Source: Thermococcus sp. 2319x1 (GTDB lineage Archaea > Methanobacteriota_B > Thermococci > Thermococcales > Thermococcaceae). From it: a DNA stretch of 64,000 nt. Below, piece after piece: positions 33,997 to 41,579 of this stretch. The notes under the pieces are model-generated. The model saw nothing but the letters and a program-made list of their open reading frames with translations. It did not search any database and had not been told where the DNA came from. Where the stretch lies: NCBI RefSeq assembly GCF_001484685.1, contig NZ_CP012200.1, forward strand, positions 1,606,321 to 1,670,320, in the 5' to 3' direction. A program made the position numbers and the translations under genes. Each line of letters opens with the position of its first letter. Within the stretch, counting starts at the first letter, position 1.

Positions 33997-34514
33997 GTGG
34001 CCACATATGGATTGTGGTACTTTAAAGCTCAAGATGGGAATTATGAAACATTTTCCTCCGCAGGAACACCATCTCAGCTGAAAGACAGAGGATTTACCTA
34101 TGCAATAGCTCTGCATTCTGCTGCAAAAGATGAAAATGGAAACTTATTATATGGGAATATTCCGTTTAGTGGATATTCCTACAACGATGGATACCAAGAT
34201 GGAGCATCTCTTGGAAGATGGATAGATTCGATACTGAAAGGAATCGATTATCTTGTTGTGGTTCCAGTTCTCATTGACAAGAGTAAAACCAGAGGAGTTA
34301 GAGGAATTGGGTATGGAGTATTCCTAACGGATATATAGAAATGGAAGTGGATGGGACTATCAACTCATATCCAGACTTAATAAATAAAGCATGTGACTAT
34401 GTTACAGCACAAAAGAATTCGGTGGTTGGAGATATTTGGCCACAGAGAGCATATTACTACAATGCTAATATAAACAATGTTGATGAGGTGAGGAATCAAT
34501 GTCCCGAGTGGTAA
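33997..34514 (+). pseudogene. Hypothetical gene with single-base frameshift
   Basis: GTG 33997 (GAGGTGATATT upstream) opens a frame beginning ATYGLWYFKAQDG that stops at 34338. The next frame carries on smoothly from GYIEMEVDGTINSYPDL to DEVRNQCPEW and a TAA at 34512-34514. Adding one T near 34323 would restore about 171 residues. The last codons overlap the next gene by 16 bp, as expected if the full-length form is original. No family is recognised; the sequence is aromatic-rich and lacks a signal peptide. It lies inside the inverted-repeat unit. Confidence 0.6.
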
Positions 34515-35938
34515 AAGGCACTGTCTTTGTTTCTATTCTTTTCCTTCTGCTTATCGACTCTATTCCAGTATTGACTGGTTATACTGACAATTTGAAAATC
34601 ATAAACGCCTATTCTATTGGAGACAAGGTAGCATTCGTGGTTCTCAACACAACATCGAATAAACTTTATGCTCTAACTTACAACGGTCACTCCTTTGAAG
34701 TGGAGCCACTTAATTTCACTACATCATATTTAGTGAGACACTGGAACGGCAAGTACTGGCTCCTCCAAAAAGGAAGGCGGGGAACTGTTAGTCTTTACAC
34801 ATACCAGGATGGTGTCCTTAAGCTTATTAGAACTTTTAATGGAGGTAGCTTATGCACGGATAATGACTTAGAGATTAAGTGGAATGGCAGAGAGTATCTT
34901 CTAACTTTTATAGAAGCGGGTCCCCATAATGATCCCAACACTGGAGAATGCACTTTCAAGTTTAAAGACTACATCCTGAAAGATGAAAACCTAGTACCCC
35001 TTAATGTCACTGGGCGGGAAGTCTGGATCCCTGCGCTTAACGCTTGGCTCATTGGGGAATCTTTAGTTGACGAGAATGGAAAAGTGCTCGGAGAGTACAA
35101 CTTCAGTAAAACCGGTATATATTCGGTGGGGTTAGCTGTTGATGACGGTAAAACTTTTCTCGTGGTATCTTCAGATGGAGGATGGGTTCGAGTATTCACT
35201 ATCAGGAACTCTTCACTGGTTTTAATCTACAATCGGAGACTAGAAAAAAGAGAGTTGGGAGAAGGGCCATATCCTCCAAAGGTGTGGATTGGAAAGCCGA
35301 TGCTTCTTGGTAGAGATTCACATAACGATTTGAGATTCATTGTATGGCTGTTTAACGGCACCGATTTCATTAAGATACATGCATTTGAAGACTATGCGAT
35401 GCTTTATCCGCTAACTACCTCGAATAGGAGTTACATTCTTTCAAGAATTCCCATCAACATGGGAACCTACATCTTGCTCAATCTATTTGAACTCAGGGGT
35501 TTTTCACTTGTTCAAGTTAGTTCCCTAAAAGTCAGAAACAACTACCTTAGAGTGATCAACATGAAGGAATCGAAAGGGTTTTCAGCACCAAAAGTTGAGC
35601 CTGGAAGCATGCTTGTAGCTTCTGGGGAAAATTCAGTTTTTCTGTTTAACTCTAGCCATATATTTGACCTTACCTCAAGAGATAGCATTGAGCTTCCGAA
35701 TGCCCTTAAAAACCATGGATACAGGGTAGCGCTTTGTTGTGGGGGATGGATTGTATTTGATGAGAACAAGATATATTTCTTTAAAAATGACAAATTTAGC
35801 GACATAACCCCAGAAATGATTTCAGTATTGTCTGAGAGACCAAAGAGCAACAATTCTTTAATCATGGATATTTTGGGTAGTCTTGTGGCTGTGGTTATAG
35901 TAGTTTTCTTGCTGGTTTTCCTAAGAAAAAGCAAATAA
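34499..35938 (+). CDS. Membrane-anchored propeller-like hypothetical protein
   Basis: 479 residues with an N-terminal signal helix (about 6-25), a long beta-rich ectodomain and one C-terminal helix (about 455-476) ending RKSK, so it is displayed outside the cell. Repeated strand units such as WNGKYWLLQK, WNGREYLLTF and NRSYILSRI suggest a beta-propeller. ATG 34499 follows GAGGTGAGG and overlaps the previous broken gene, implying an operon. It resembles the proteins at 14912-15883 and 53414-54448 in pattern. Its position between IS-type ends suggests it was acquired or moved as a unit. Confidence 0.7.
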   Translation: MSRVVKGTVFVSILFLLLIDSIPVLTGYTDNLKIINAYSIGDKVAFVVLNTTSNKLYALTYNGHSFEVEPLNFTTSYLVRHWNGKYWLLQKGRRGTVSLYTYQDGVLKLIRTFNGGSLCTDNDLEIKWNGREYLLTFIEAGPHNDPNTGECTFKFKDYILKDENLVPLNVTGREVWIPALNAWLIGESLVDENGKVLGEYNFSKTGIYSVGLAVDDGKTFLVVSSDGGWVRVFTIRNSSLVLIYNRRLEKRELGEGPYPPKVWIGKPMLLGRDSHNDLRFIVWLFNGTDFIKIHAFEDYAMLYPLTTSNRSYILSRIPINMGTYILLNLFELRGFSLVQVSSLKVRNNYLRVINMKESKGFSAPKVEPGSMLVASGENSVFLFNSSHIFDLTSRDSIELPNALKNHGYRVALCCGGWIVFDENKIYFFKNDKFSDITPEMISVLSERPKSNNSLIMDILGSLVAVVIVVFLLVFLRKSK

Positions 35939-36115: not shown

Positions 36116-36616
36116 CTACTTGTGCCGCCTTATGAATTCCCCAATGTCTGCAATGTTTTTAATGAACTTCTTTTCGCTCTCTGGATTTATAATGCCGAGT
36201 CCAAGGATTAAACCTTCTTCATTTAGGATAACAAGCTTTTTGCTCCCCTGCCAGTTGTATTCCTTAACCCCTTTTTTCGGCACGTCTTTGCCGGTTGTGA
36301 AAAGAAACGCAGTTTTTGGCTTTAGAACCGCATAGTTCTTCTTAATATCCACAAAATAGAAGAACTCAATATTTGGGCAAAATTTCTCAACAAGGTTTTT
36401 GTCAACCTTTATTGTGCCCACAAACGTTCCAAATGCGTAGGGCTTTACCTTTAGGTTTTCTATTTCTCTCCAAACTTCCTCGTTTACCGCATAGACATCC
36501 CTAAACTTTCCCTCGACTATCCCAAAGAACTCGTGTTTTAACTCCCCGAACTTTTCAGCTTCCTTCATTATCAAATCAAACTCCCAAGAGGAAGCCCTTC
36601 TGTACCTAAGTTCCAT
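36116..36616 (-). CDS. NIP7-like PUA-domain RNA-binding protein
   Basis: 166 residues from ATG 36616 (GGTGA 5 bases upstream). The N-terminal domain includes [23 protein letters not shown], and the C-terminal PUA domain (about 85-160) includes [19 protein letters not shown] and [16 protein letters not shown]. This matches the archaeal NIP7/KD93 family, which in eukaryotes takes part in 60S ribosome biogenesis. It overlaps the upstream YkgJ-type gene by 11 bp, so they are coupled. Confidence 0.8.
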
Positions 36617-37121
36617 TGTTTTCACCGTTCAAAAGAATGCCTAAGCCATCCAAATCAGTTTTTTCAAATTCTTTCTGGAACTTTATTCCGAGTTCTGCTA
36701 TTTTCTCCTTCGTTATGACCTCTTTCCCTTCCCCAATCCCCGGACAGCTCTCGTCGTAGTAGAGCCAGAGCTTTTCTCCATTGTACTCAAAAGGTTCTTC
36801 ACCTTCAATGCCAAGCGGCTTGTGGGAGACCATGAAGGGATAGATCTGACAAATTAAGGGATTGTAATTGTGAATTTTACACTTTCCAGTTTCTGGATCG
36901 TGGAAAACACACCCAAGATCCCATTCTCTATAGGCCAAGACAAAGCGTATTTTTCCCCCTTCACCAGTTAGAAGGATAAATTCCTGTGGATCATGCCCCC
37001 TTCTCATTATGTTCTTTATGTCATGCAAGGTTAAGTAGATAAACCTCCCTCTACAGCAGTCGAGGCAGAATTTGCACTCAAACTTCACATCGCTCTTCAA
37101 TGGTTTTGGCTTGAATCTCAC
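36606..37121 (-). CDS. YkgJ-family cysteine cluster protein
   Basis: 171 residues. The metal-binding pattern [17 protein letters not shown] near residues 14-30, then [18 protein letters not shown], and a late Cys in YDESCPG fit the YkgJ (iron/zinc-chelating) family, function unknown. The start is GTG 37121. Together with the NIP7-like gene it forms a two-gene operon. Confidence 0.82.
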
Positions 37122-37181: not shown

Positions 37182-37313
37182 ATGAAAGCGCTTTCTATCG
37201 TGGTGGTAATCTTGGCAGTTCTCATGGCTATGTATACCCCTTCTCAGGTAAAACTCAAGGAATTCCAGTTCTCGGAAGTCCCAAATGTTAAACGCCTTTT
37301 TGAAAAGTTATGA
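37182..37313 (+). CDS. Small exported or membrane peptide, 43 residues
   Basis: ATG 37182 opens MKALSIVVVILAVLMAMYT, a signal or anchor helix, followed by a short amphipathic, basic tail ending VKRLFEKL. A TATA-like CTTTTAAATC at 37155-37164 lies about 22 bp upstream, suggesting a leaderless or very short-leader message. Its 3' end overlaps the convergent membrane-protein pseudogene by 6 bp. Not recognised. Confidence 0.45.
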   Translation: MKALSIVVVILAVLMAMYTPSQVKLKEFQFSEVPNVKRLFEKL

Positions 37314-37633
37314 AATTCTCCAGATCATTTCAATGTACATACCAATTAGGCCAAGTTCAAATGCCACTAAAAATAACGTTGATACATTGAGGCCTTTGAT
37401 GCTTTCAACTGCAAAATAAGCCAAGAGAATGCTCAAAAGAATTCCAGCCGTGCTTACAGGCGGGTTTTTCTTTAAAATCGCAGGCAATAACATCAAAACT
37501 AGCATAAAGTACAATATTACGAAGGGATACTTAGCATATCCAGTTACTAATGCCACTCCACCCAAAAGAACTCCAAAATGGAAGCAAAAATTATGGAAAT
37601 ATCAGACTTTCTCAATACGATCTCCCTCCTCAT
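37308..37633 (-). pseudogene. Small membrane protein with single-base frameshift
   Basis: The downstream frame (FGVLLGGVALVTGYAKYP onward, three helices) has no proper start. In the neighbouring frame, ATG 37633 begins MRREIVLRKSDISIIFASI and would join it if one T were added to the TTTT run near 37588, giving a smooth first helix. Without the change it stops after 28 codons. It is the last member of the Cys-rich peptide operon, 49 bp after the preceding gene. Confidence 0.5.
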
Positions 37634-37682
37634 TCACTTCACTCACTAATGACTCCAATTGTGGGTTTCCCATTTATTGTCC

Positions 37683-37880
37683 TTATTTGAGGACTTTCAC
37701 TATGGTGCTGTTTTTCAAGGCTCTCCAAACAACACTTACTGCTCCAGCTGTGAGTGCTACAATTCCGTAGTATCTAAGCAGGAGCTTGTTCCATTCCACA
37801 TAAATTGATAACAAAATTAGGGATATGCCGACCAAAAGAATAAAGTATGAGAGGTAATTTAAAAACTTCTCCTTCTCCAT
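37683..37880 (-). CDS. Small two-helix membrane protein
   Basis: 65 residues with two predicted helices (about 10-30 and 36-55) and charged ends. ATG 37880 has GGTGGTGAG directly upstream. It sits 12 bp after the stop of the interrupted Cys-rich peptide frame. An immunity or export role is possible given the context, but there is no sequence evidence. Confidence 0.6.
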   Translation of the reverse strand: MEKEKFLNYLSYFILLVGISLILLSIYVEWNKLLLRYYGIVALTAGAVSVVWRALKNSTIVKVLK

Positions 37881-37892
37881 CTCACCACCACC

Positions 37893-38105
37893 TTAAGGTC
37901 CAGGAATTAAGATTCTTTGTCCACATTTCTGTTCCCATTCCTCACAACATGCCTATGGGAAAATTCCAGCAGCAAGAAGACAGGCTAAACAACTGGCTAC
38001 ATTTCCACTAAGACACGTACCACATGCCCATACATCTCCTCTAGCACACGCTCCATAGCATCCCTCTAACCCCAAGCCTTTGGTGAAAGCCCACGTTGAA
38101 TACAT
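37893..38105 (-). pseudogene. Cys-rich peptide gene interrupted by TAG
   Basis: ATG 38105 follows GAGGTG by 6 bases; this site overlaps the stop of the gene before it, so it is coupled. The first 50 codons contain Cys at 16, 20, 28, 31, 39 and 42 (CGTCLSGNVASCLACLL), then a TAG at 37955-37953. The same frame continues for 19 more codons with three further Cys (ACCEEWEQKC) to TAA at 37893. The pattern aligns with residues 190-227 of the 18-Cys protein at 38886-39584 (CGPACLLGPVACLSCSL, DCLEEGSIC). It is either a recent nonsense mutation or a truncated 50-residue peptide. Confidence 0.6.
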
Positions 38106-38115
38106 TTTCATCACC

Positions 38116-38454
38116 TCAACCATTAGTTTTAGATGGCCGATTTACAAAAACAAAATATATTATTAGCGATATAGGTATCCAAAAAGCTATACTCATTGCA
38201 AAAACTAGCAAATCTTTATCGGTCAGTGTCCCTGCAAGATATTTTATCATTGCCATTAAAAGGTACCAGATAACTATAGCAAATGGAGCAAGTGACTTGA
38301 ATTTAACTGCAAAAGCATAGGAAATAACTCCCACTACGATAAACAAGAAAATTTCCGAAAATGGTTCATTCCTCAGGAAAATTAGAGTTAAGGTAACATA
38401 CAAAAAGAGCGGAATAAATGCTAACCCTCTCTCCTCTACACCCGTTTTCTTCAT
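38116..38454 (-). CDS. Four-helix membrane protein of Cys-rich peptide operon
   Basis: 112 residues with four predicted helices (about 12-28, 34-50, 54-72, 84-104) and both ends probably inside. ATG 38454 follows GGAGG by 6 bases. It starts 18 bp after the gene at 38473 and its stop overlaps the ribosome site of the Cys-rich peptide. No family recognised. Size and placement suit an immunity or helper protein, but that is inference. Confidence 0.65.
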   Translation of the reverse strand: MKKTGVEERGLAFIPLFLYVTLTLIFLRNEPFSEIFLFIVVGVISYAFAVKFKSLAPFAIVIWYLLMAMIKYLAGTLTDKDLLVFAMSIAFWIPISLIIYFVFVNRPSKTNG

Positions 38455-38472
38455 CTTAGACCTCCTCCGTTT

Positions 38473-38874
38473 CTAATTCTGATTACCTGCTTTATGGCGA
38501 TAGTAATCGACGACGGTTTCATATATTGCGACGACTCCTAATAATACCACCCACAGGGCCCCCAATATGACATCTTGCAAATCAAGTCCGTACAAAAAGT
38601 CTATTGTCCCAAGAGTAGCAATGTAACTTATGATGCCTGCAATTAACATCCTTACTGAATTATGAAAGCTTGTTTTTCTCTCCAGAATCACGTAAATGAT
38701 GATAAACATGCCCAACAGTACTGCAGAAAGTGGTGCGAAAAATTTCAAGAAGCTCACGAATTCTGCAACACTTCTTCCGTCAATCATAAACATTACGAAA
38801 AGACATGCAGTAATAAGGAAAAAGAAAAACAACATTCTGAGGATCAAAGTCTTTGACGTTATGTTAGCAGACAT
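38473..38874 (-). CDS. Four-helix membrane protein of Cys-rich peptide operon
   Basis: 133 residues with four predicted helices (about 12-32, 42-63, 73-93, 100-121) and a short basic tail (YYRHKAGNQN). ATG 38874 has GGAGGG 6 bases upstream, overlapping the TAG of the Cys-rich precursor gene. It is similar in size and topology to the next gene, and the two may form a pair. Not recognised. Confidence 0.65.
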   Translation of the reverse strand: MSANITSKTLILRMLFFFFLITACLFVMFMIDGRSVAEFVSFLKFFAPLSAVLLGMFIIIYVILERKTSFHNSVRMLIAGIISYIATLGTIDFLYGLDLQDVILGALWVVLLGVVAIYETVVDYYRHKAGNQN

Positions 38875-38885
38875 TCAAATCCCTC

Positions 38886-39584
38886 CTATGGAGCTACTGA
38901 TTGACATATTGAACCTTCCTCTAGGCAATCCCTACAAATATCGTAGTAACACCATGGACACAATCCAAGAGAACACGAAAGGCAAGCAACCGGTCCAAGG
39001 AGACAAGCTGGACCACAAAGATCACAACACCAAAATACACAATCTGGATCTGGTGAGCTCTGTTCACAGCAAATTTCATAGCATGCTTCGAGAATACCAC
39101 AGTCTGCATCACTGGAGCATTCGTGAGGACAGGAGCTGAGAATAGTCACTTGTCCGTTGGTACTTAATGCTTGAGTTTTTACAAGAGTTTCATTTACGCC
39201 AAACAGGTAGCTTCTTGTCTTGATTCCTTGTACTGGTTTTGAGAATTCATAATAACCTATTACGTGCTTGCCGTCTTTTAATGGGATTCCCATGGCAAGC
39301 ATTTCAATCCTCTCGCCGTTATAATCTACAATGTGCCTTACTATTCTGACGCTCTTATAGTCAACTTCCCAAGGCTTTGCCAAACTCCTAAGGTCCTTGC
39401 TAACGAGGATTTTGTTAAAAACACGCACTGAAGACCAGTTCTCCGGAGCTTTTTCCACAGGCTTGACTTCTCTAAATGGATTCACACAACCTTTAACTTC
39501 TGGGGGTTTGGGCTGGCTTACTGCGTAAGCTGCGTACGCTCCAACCAACAACAAAACCACAAGCAAGCTTAACTTCTTCCTCAT
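38886..39584 (-). CDS. Exported precursor with 18-cysteine C-terminal domain
   Basis: 232 residues. A signal peptide (about 1-22) is followed by a beta-type domain with one Cys (about 30-148), then a compact domain (152-227) with 18 Cys, mostly as CC, CxxC and CxxxC, separated by small hydrophobic residues (GPACLLGPVACLSCSLGLCP). The layout of exported N-domain plus Cys-rich hydrophobic C-domain recalls the halocin C8 precursor, where the C-part is a peptide antibiotic and the N-part confers immunity. I see no sequence identity strong enough to claim homology. A metal- or cluster-binding surface protein is the alternative. It leads an operon of small membrane proteins and a second Cys-rich peptide. 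Confidence 0.7.
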   Translation of the reverse strand: MRKKLSLLVVLLLVGAYAAYAVSQPKPPEVKGCVNPFREVKPVEKAPENWSSVRVFNKILVSKDLRSLAKPWEVDYKSVRIVRHIVDYNGERIEMLAMGIPLKDGKHVIGYYEFSKPVQGIKTRSYLFGVNETLVKTQALSTNGQVTILSSCPHECSSDADCGILEACYEICCEQSSPDPDCVFWCCDLCGPACLLGPVACLSCSLGLCPWCYYDICRDCLEEGSICQSVAP

Positions 39585-39635
39585 TCGCCCCCCCCAAGTA
39601 TGAGGAAATTTTCACAAATAATTAAGCACTCAAAG

Positions 39636-39722: not shown

Positions 39723-41486
39723 TCAGGTGTTCAAATGCGCATCAAACTCTTTGCTTTCCACAAAGTTTGCATAGCTCTTCTCAAGCCTCTTGCTCACATA
39801 TGGGCCGTCCTTTCTGTAGCCGAACTTTCTGTAGTACTCTCTAACGCCAACGCCGCTTATGATGAGCATCTTCTTTACGTCGAACTCTTCTCTCGCTACC
39901 CTCTCCGCCTCAGCTAAGAGCTCCCTTCCGTAACCCCTGTGCTGCCACTCGTACTTTGGCTTCCCACCTATTGGAACCAAAGGTCCGTAAACGTGGAGTT
40001 CCCTCACTATAGCGGAAGGACAGCAGTTTATCTCTTTTCTATGAGCTTTTTCACTTGGGATTCTAAGCCTGATGAAGCCGATTAAAATATCGTTCTTCAC
40101 GTCCTCAAAGCTCAGGAATATCTCTTCTCCTTCGCTTGCCTTATAATCCTCTCTCAGCAACTTAATGTGCTCAACCTCTGGTTGAACCCCAAATTTCTGA
40201 ATCTGATGTCCAACTTCCCTAAAGCGAATCTCCCTCGGCCTTATGCCCCTCTTTATGAGCTCATTGAACACCAGCTGGCCGAGATTGGAATGCTTCACAC
40301 CAGCTTCAACAAGCTGAACTGGAATATCTCTCTGAATCCTCATGACTCTAACCCATTTTGGAAGGAGTTTGTACACTTCAACAAGCAGCTCGACGGCTTC
40401 TTCGGTTGTGTAAGGCCTGTATTTCCCTTCCTTATACCATCTGTAGAGGAGCGTATCCCTCGTGACTAGGGTTGGGTAAATTTTGAGCATATCGGGCCTG
40501 AAGCGTTCATCTTCAAAGATTATCTTGAAGGCCTTTAAGTCTCTCTCAAAGTTGCTTCCCGGTAAGCCCGGCATCATGTGGTAGTTTATCTTAAGACCGG
40601 CATCTTTGAGAAGCTGAGTGGCTTTTACGGTGTCTTCAACTGTGTGCCCCCTCTTTACTCTCTCATAGATGAAGTTGAAGACCGTTTGAACTCCAAGCTC
40701 CACTCTTGTTGTGCCGAGCTTAAGCATTCTATCGATTTGTCTTTCCATAGCCCAATCCGGCCTTGTTTCAATGGTTAATCCCACCATTCTGACCTTTGCC
40801 TTCTCGTTCTTTCTCTGCTCTTCCTCAAGGTAATAGTAGCGCTTTGAGTGAGTTCTCTCCCATGCTTTTTTGAAGAGAGGGTCTTCGTCAATTTCACCAA
40901 AAAGAACTGCCTTTCTAATTTTCTCTTCAAGGTTCTCGATATCCTTAAAGTAGGGAAAATCGTTCATGGCTTTGAATGCCTCTTTTATGAACCACTCTTG
41001 ATAGTCCAAATCAACAGCAGGAAAAGTTCCGCCCTGTATAATGACCTCAACTTTATCTATGTCATGACCGATATCATAGAGCTGCTTCAAGCGGTTCATC
41101 ATTATGAGGTAGGGATGATAAGCATTCTGAAGAGCTCTCAAAGCAGAAGGCTCTTTTCCGGTGTAGCTTTGAGGGGAGCCCTCACTTGGGCCCCCGGGGC
41201 AGTAAATGCACCTTCCATGGGGGCATGGAAACGGCTTCGTCATCATCGCCACAACGGCCACTCCACTTATGGTTCTTGTTGGCTTCTTCTTGAGAAAGTC
41301 CTTGAACCTCTCCCTCTCTTCTTTCTTCATTACCCTAAGAATGTCGGAATTGGTAGGAATTCTTGAGAGATGGTACTTAGCGGCGATTTTAACCTTAAAC
41401 CTATTGAGCTCTCTCCTATCCTTAATCTCGCCTGAAATTACCGCCCTTGCAATTTCCTCGCAGGCTTTTCTATATTTTTCTTCCAT
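39723..41486 (-). CDS. elp3: tRNA U34 modification radical SAM/acetyltransferase Elp3
   Basis: Catalyses carboxymethylation of wobble uridine in tRNA from acetyl-CoA. The radical SAM cluster is in CPHGRCIYCPGGPSEG near residue 90. The C-terminal GNAT domain (about 430-587) contains QHRGYGRELLAEAERVA and YYRKFGYRKDGPY. ATG 41486 (587 residues) is chosen; 41492 and 41501 are alternatives. It is monocistronic, with its own T-rich terminator. Confidence 0.93.
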   Translation of the reverse strand: MEEKYRKACEEIARAVISGEIKDRRELNRFKVKIAAKYHLSRIPTNSDILRVMKKEERERFKDFLKKKPTRTISGVAVVAMMTKPFPCPHGRCIYCPGGPSEGSPQSYTGKEPSALRALQNAYHPYLIMMNRLKQLYDIGHDIDKVEVIIQGGTFPAVDLDYQEWFIKEAFKAMNDFPYFKDIENLEEKIRKAVLFGEIDEDPLFKKAWERTHSKRYYYLEEEQRKNEKAKVRMVGLTIETRPDWAMERQIDRMLKLGTTRVELGVQTVFNFIYERVKRGHTVEDTVKATQLLKDAGLKINYHMMPGLPGSNFERDLKAFKIIFEDERFRPDMLKIYPTLVTRDTLLYRWYKEGKYRPYTTEEAVELLVEVYKLLPKWVRVMRIQRDIPVQLVEAGVKHSNLGQLVFNELIKRGIRPREIRFREVGHQIQKFGVQPEVEHIKLLREDYKASEGEEIFLSFEDVKNDILIGFIRLRIPSEKAHRKEINCCPSAIVRELHVYGPLVPIGGKPKYEWQHRGYGRELLAEAERVAREEFDVKKMLIISGVGVREYYRKFGYRKDGPYVSKRLEKSYANFVESKEFDAHLNT

Positions 41487-41579
41487 TCCCATCACGTTCA
41501 TTAAGATAGTACGGGCATTTAAAAGTCTTCACCTGAAAATGTTTTAAGCATCGAAGAGTAATGACTTCGGTGAACAAAA

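Follow-up and report, generated by a model that had tools for sequence, protein, structure and literature searches.

What is the function of an operon in which a gene for an exported-type, cysteine-rich precursor is followed by a string of genes for small membrane proteins? We examined such an operon of Thermococcus sp. 2319x1 within a stretch of 64,000 nucleotides (contig NZ_CP012200.1, positions 1,606,321 to 1,670,320; hereafter the window, whose numbering is used throughout). A preliminary description of this DNA had proposed either a peptide antibiotic encoded with its immunity proteins or a surface metal or disulfide system. Comparison with related loci argues strongly, at the level of sequence, for the peptide antibiotic, as cores and membrane genes covary, are replaced as cassettes, leave orphan genes behind and also give rise to immunity-only loci. 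We consider it likely (probability about 0.8) that the C-terminal core of the first protein, A, and the membrane protein B are the toxin and immunity protein of a polymorphic, disulfide-rich archaeocin, with C and E as orphan immunities and D and F as wreckage. The system is probably a weapon between archaeal strains.

Organization of the operon

The operon is confirmed: its six features are all on the minus strand between 39584 and 37308 and are flanked by an Elp3 gene (39723-41501; TIGR01211) and a gene for a CxxCxxCC-domain protein (36606-37121). The promoter that had been proposed is supported by conservation: the TATA-like TTTATATA (39643-39636, minus strand) is at -59 from the start of gene A, and almost every homolog compared has an equivalent of the motif (TTATATA) between about -50 and -65. 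Directly 5′ of the gene A start codon, in the region of the ribosome site, is a tract of eight Gs (39588-39595, minus strand). The length of this tract ranges from about 4 to 13 Gs among homologs, and its slippage might tune gene A translation or subject it to phase variation.

Gene A (38886-39584), a member of a family found in Thermococcaceae, encodes the 232-residue precursor, whose last 81 residues (38889-39131; ~8.7 kDa) are the hypervariable core. It is followed after 11 bp by gene B (38473-38874), which encodes a membrane protein of 133 aa with four hydrophobic helices, and after a further 18 bp by gene C (38116-38454), which encodes a four-helix membrane protein of 112 aa. To this point the genes are as first described. 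The second cysteine-rich frame, of 70 codons (38105-37896), is not open. It contains TAG at codon 51 (37955-37953) and belongs to D (37896-38123), which is a relic and a mosaic of two old cores. Of the two further small membrane proteins that had been listed, E (37683-37880; 65 aa, two helices) is retained, and F (37308-37565; 85 aa) is a remnant that is frameshifted by a 1-bp deletion and has lost its N terminus. The reported gaps of 10-18 bp hold only for A, B, C and the unopened D frame; the distances are 72 bp from the TAG of D to E and 117 bp from E to F.

Searches of A-F and their relatives against Pfam, NCBIfam, PADLOC and PHROGs returned no meaningful family match, no delivery or secretion module and no known toxin domain, and no known toxin, bacteriocin or immunity family was matched. 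Elsewhere in the window, 34499-35938 on the plus strand encodes an exported-type protein of 479 aa that has a helix at its C terminus and matches no family; no counterpart of it is present in the flanking regions of the related loci that were compared.

A conserved N-terminal part precedes a hypervariable core

The precursor consists of a signal or anchor helix (residues 3-22), a conserved β-rich N-domain (~44-148) and the core (152-232). As initially noted it is cysteine-rich, with 18 cysteines in the core and one more at residue 33. When homologs are aligned, the motifs GAY.AY.VSYPKYPEVKGCVNPF, LAKPW..DY, YEFSKPVQG and NG (143-144) are kept in the N-part, and little of the core is conserved beyond the cysteine scaffold and a glycine near its end. 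Among 31 distinct precursors, mean identity is 61% for the N-part, 42% for the core (mostly the cysteine scaffold) and 24% for the first membrane gene. Of 94 Thermococcaceae genomes, 44 contain homologs of A, fragments counted, and about a third of the 94 (~32) carry a full-length or nearly full-length gene. None occurs in 21 genomes from the rest of the phylum, no relatives were found in viral contigs, phages or plasmids, and every named relative is a record from Thermococcus, Thermococcaceae or Thermococci.

Export of A was judged solely by its hydrophobic N terminus. Since an AxA cleavage site is not evident in homologs from other genera, the precursor may remain anchored. In one version of the archaeocin reading, which is possible but which we doubt, A would be a contact-dependent, membrane-anchored toxin whose N-terminal helix stays uncleaved and whose core is delivered by contact. 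The conservation of this helix and of the first N-part motif far beyond the needs of a signal peptide speaks for such a mode, as does a layout resembling those of polymorphic toxins and VARTIG (PMC8416519), but the AYA-V motif of the window protein resembles a cleavage site and no gene devoted to export, proteolysis or delivery is linked to the locus.

The genome of the window contains a second copy of the A leader (L002; G000:C1:369154-369265; 112 bp at 93% DNA identity), which lies between unrelated genes and is what remains of another precursor. In three other cases (L064, L065, which is from the same MAG as L058, and L066) the leader region lies at a contig end, which suggests that several near-identical copies broke the assembly and that each genome has more than a single locus. 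In many genomes the locus adjoins a divergent pair of genes for TldD/PmbA-type proteases (PF01523; L037, L038, L041, L042, L043, L045, L047, L048, L051 and L052). Maturation of microcin B17 uses TldD/E; here, the adjacency may merely reflect a shared insertion site.

The type of the core predicts the type of the adjacent membrane protein

Thirty of the 31 distinct precursors are followed, at -28 to +21 bp, by a gene for a membrane protein with one to four helices, and in the last case this gene is 128 bp on. As a control, 442 ORFs of 200 aa or longer were taken from the same loci, and only 13 of them are directly followed by a small membrane gene. This linkage, which had been proposed as a check, holds for every one of these precursors, and the type of membrane gene changes with the core. 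With N-part similarity controlled for, core similarity and first-membrane-gene similarity are correlated (partial Mantel r 0.76, reached in 0 of 9999 permutations, none of which gave a value above 0.26), so the type of membrane gene can be predicted from the type of core irrespective of the N-part. Matching pairs of core and partner span genera (L032/L035, L034/L043 and L046/L050). There are exceptions, in which the first membrane genes are dissimilar despite matched cores (L037 versus L032/L035, and L041 versus L098/L100). Pairing of this kind could be compared for core types with more than one member.

The core type of the window is shared with L107 (68% identity), and the closest relative of B at the first position is the first membrane gene of that locus (37%). 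Judged from these similarities, B is the likely cognate immunity protein of the window core. The proposal that the membrane proteins confer immunity thus probably applies to the operon's present candidate toxin only in the case of B, and C, E and F appear to be leftovers of earlier cassettes.

Cores and membrane genes are exchanged as a block

The window locus is allelic to L030. The DNA of the two is 89% identical from before Elp3 to position 39097, which corresponds to codon 163, just beyond the third core cysteine. They are then unrelated for 1.5 kb and again 91% identical from within F. The replaced block (37599-39096, minus strand) is without DNA similarity to L030, save for a 35-bp scrap in D. 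The core and membrane genes belong to a block that is exchanged between otherwise allelic loci.

Older membrane genes and core scraps accumulate downstream of the core. The B-C DNA is 88% identical to a segment of L032, in a genome of another genus (G031), where a different core and that core's own immunity gene precede it; the orphan copy of B in this locus has 95% amino acid identity, and 18 nt of the end of a window-type core are left in front of it. Since the Elp3 genes of the two genomes are only 77% identical, B-C must have moved between genera. Gene C, which travels with B in L032, shares homology with the immunity gene that comes first behind core type 0 (L030/L031/L034/L043) and would be an orphan immunity gene left from an earlier cassette.

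The remaining features involve a sister family of precursors (family 2), which shares the plan of the family to which A belongs (family 1) and is homologous to it (hhalign probability 97%, E 7.5e-11). Intact family-2 precursors are found in L119, where an E-like gene comes next, and in the window's own genome (L132; G000:C1:753187-753999), where a four-helix gene lies downstream. A copy nearly identical to L132 is found in genome G003 with its flanks exchanged (L131). Relic D joins a 35-bp piece of a family-1 core of type 0, with 91% identity to L030, to the tail of a family-2 core, and TAG stands in place of the W of the D-type core. Since a homolog of E comes immediately after the intact D-type core of L119, and likewise after the D relic of L034, and D retains a family-2 end, E is probably the partner of a family-2 core that has vanished, and thus a further orphan immunity gene. 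The frameshift in F results from a TTTT run that is TTTTT in L030, and relatives of F are intact in L031 and L122. We also considered readthrough of the stop codon in D and rejected it, because W occupies this position in L119 as well as in the L034 relic and D is a mosaic.

Six loci (L051, L111, L112, L113, L116 and L124) contain broken precursors next to intact membrane genes, the damage consisting of large deletions, frameshifts or a lost leader. In one of these, L124, the promoter, some eight leader codons and a core tail persist, followed by three partner genes that include relatives of B and F. As none of the 31 intact precursors lacks a membrane gene, the asymmetry is one-way, as a toxin-immunity pair predicts. 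Genome G043 carries two near-identical relic loci about 0.7 Mb apart, each with a core tail and membrane genes (L114 and L115), which suggests duplication or transposition of an array.

Could core and partner be something other than toxin and immunity protein? The main rival is a signal/receptor system, such as a peptide pheromone or kin recognition, in which the core is the signal, the small membrane protein is its matched receptor and there is no killing. Signal-receptor pairs would also show covariation between core and partner as well as cassette exchange, and the partner-only loci could be eavesdroppers. However, the partners are proteins of 70-137 aa with one to four helices and without a recognizable signaling domain, no regulator is seen in the operons, and the stacking of several unrelated partners in one array fits protection better than reception. 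We regard this reading as improbable and favor a toxin with its immunity proteins.

Core cysteines are even in number and vary as nested pairs

The number of cysteines is even (14, 16, 18 or 20) in all 31 cores, for which the probability by chance across 14 core types is ~6e-5. In the core alignment, most variable cysteine columns are gained or lost as nested pairs, which in window residues are 172-220, 182-217, 186-212, 187-209 and 194-201. The invariant pair 190-204 fits between these, and one further pair is found in some cores. When the variable columns were permuted, the observed number of identical column pairs was reached in 102 of 20,000 shuffles. The ladder deviates at one or two rungs in L046, L040 and L103. 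The even counts together with the nested pairing indicate that the core is a disulfide ladder and not a metal site, and we infer that the five variable pairs and 190-204 are disulfides in A. This disulfide map, drawn from covariation, is an immediate structural prediction.

A surface metal or Fe-S carrier, or a thiol/disulfide redox system with membrane partners, as the preliminary description had entertained, would account for the very high cysteine content (18-24% of core residues) but is very unlikely, as the cysteines are even in number and lost in nested pairs, the loops are hypervariable, the libraries scanned contain no metal-family match and a carrier would not be expected to swap cassettes with a matched partner.

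The cores are mildly hydrophobic and acidic. An AlphaFold model of A (pLDDT 76, pTM 0.51) contains a helix at residues 180-188 and a long helix at 198-216, with strands at 166-175 and 220-229 around them. The modeled layout is what a nested disulfide ladder would need, although the model is not independent of the cysteine-column evidence, because the alignments overlap. A fold search of the model against the PDB and viral models gave no match at E ≤ 0.001. A PDB sequence search gave nothing beyond chance hits, omwaprin (E 0.38) and vicilin (E 0.76).

A candidate class of polymorphic archaeocins

The cassette layout seems closest to VARTIG, and the behavior of the family, by analogy, matches that of polymorphic toxins. 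Like the family described here, VARTIG belongs to the Thermococcales and combines a first gene with a conserved N-part, a hypervariable C-terminal end and recombination with a downstream array of small membrane genes that tracks the type of this end (PMC8416519). VARTIG proteins are mostly larger than 500 aa and have Ig domains (PMC8416519), whereas A has 232 residues and a cysteine-rich core, and no Ig-type Pfam match was found in A or in 20 members of its family. For the A family, moreover, the loci themselves lend direct support to an immunity function of the membrane genes. In bacterial polymorphic toxins, a C-terminal toxin and its immunity gene are swapped as a cassette behind a conserved N-part (PMC3482391), and orphan immunity genes (PMC10539506), the immunity strings of T7SS (PMC9484751) and toxin relics lie downstream. 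The A family likewise has an exchangeable C-terminal domain, an adjacent partner that appears type-specific, and orphans and relics downstream, but its effector would be a small disulfide-rich peptide and it is without a delivery domain or known toxin domain.

How might such a system work? Gene A would yield an exported precursor whose conserved N-part acts in export, folding and/or anchoring, and whose C-terminal 81 residues are cut off or displayed on the surface. This small, hydrophobic, acidic peptide, stapled by its disulfide ladder, would attack the membranes of related archaea, with the first downstream membrane protein, here B, acting as the cognate immunity protein. New pairs of core and immunity gene would enter by recombination, one end of which falls in the first, conserved codons of the core (to ~163) and the other in the old immunity genes downstream. 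Displaced immunity genes such as C and E would be retained against neighbors, and displaced cores such as D would decay.

The archaeocins known so far are few and come mainly from haloarchaea and Sulfolobales (PMC10105419). Our literature search did not find a description of this family; the archaeal-toxin survey of Makarova (mBio, 2019) fell outside its scope and may list it. On balance, and with only slightly more confidence than even odds would give, we lean toward an undescribed class. Taken as a whole, this would comprise recombination-driven polymorphic archaeocins with type-specific membrane immunity, orphan arrays and immunity-only strains of Thermococcaceae, and with a core of new fold, a hairpin of up to seven nested disulfides behind a six-cysteine head. 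If so, strain-level warfare in hyperthermophiles could be tested directly, as Thermococcus has laboratory genetics; the hypervariable arrays of small membrane genes at these loci would be explained; and the family would be a source of many hyperstable disulfide-rich peptides.

Relationship to halocin C8

Halocin C8, with which the precursor had first been compared, is made from ProC8, whose maturation yields HalC8, of 76 aa, and the immunity peptide HalI (PMC11509114). As a functional analogy the comparison is a good one, and the A family may work in a similar way: both appear to be exported precursors with an N-part roughly double the length of the hydrophobic, cysteine-rich C-terminal core, which has ~75-85 aa. 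In contrast to halocin C8, A cores contain 14-20 cysteines instead of 10 and are hypervariable, and immunity would come from a separate, type-matched membrane protein and not from the N-part of the precursor. As a family relationship the comparison found no support, since TIGR04449 (halocin_C8_dom) is not matched by the A family, family 2 or isolated cores. HalC8 itself scores 61.5 bits against this model, and the HalC8 peptide used as a query retrieved annotated halocin C8 proteins. An hhalign comparison of the A family with halocin C8 families was negative, but the method is insensitive here, as the positive control between two halocin C8 sets failed too, and the two families may share a remote origin.

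Proteins scoring above the TIGR04449 cut-off are encoded at other loci in six Thermococcaceae genomes, the window genome (G000) not among them, and both kinds of peptide therefore coexist in this family of archaea. These proteins (L147-L152) are ~320-340 aa long, several have small membrane genes nearby, and in L149 a second, truncated copy adjoins the first.
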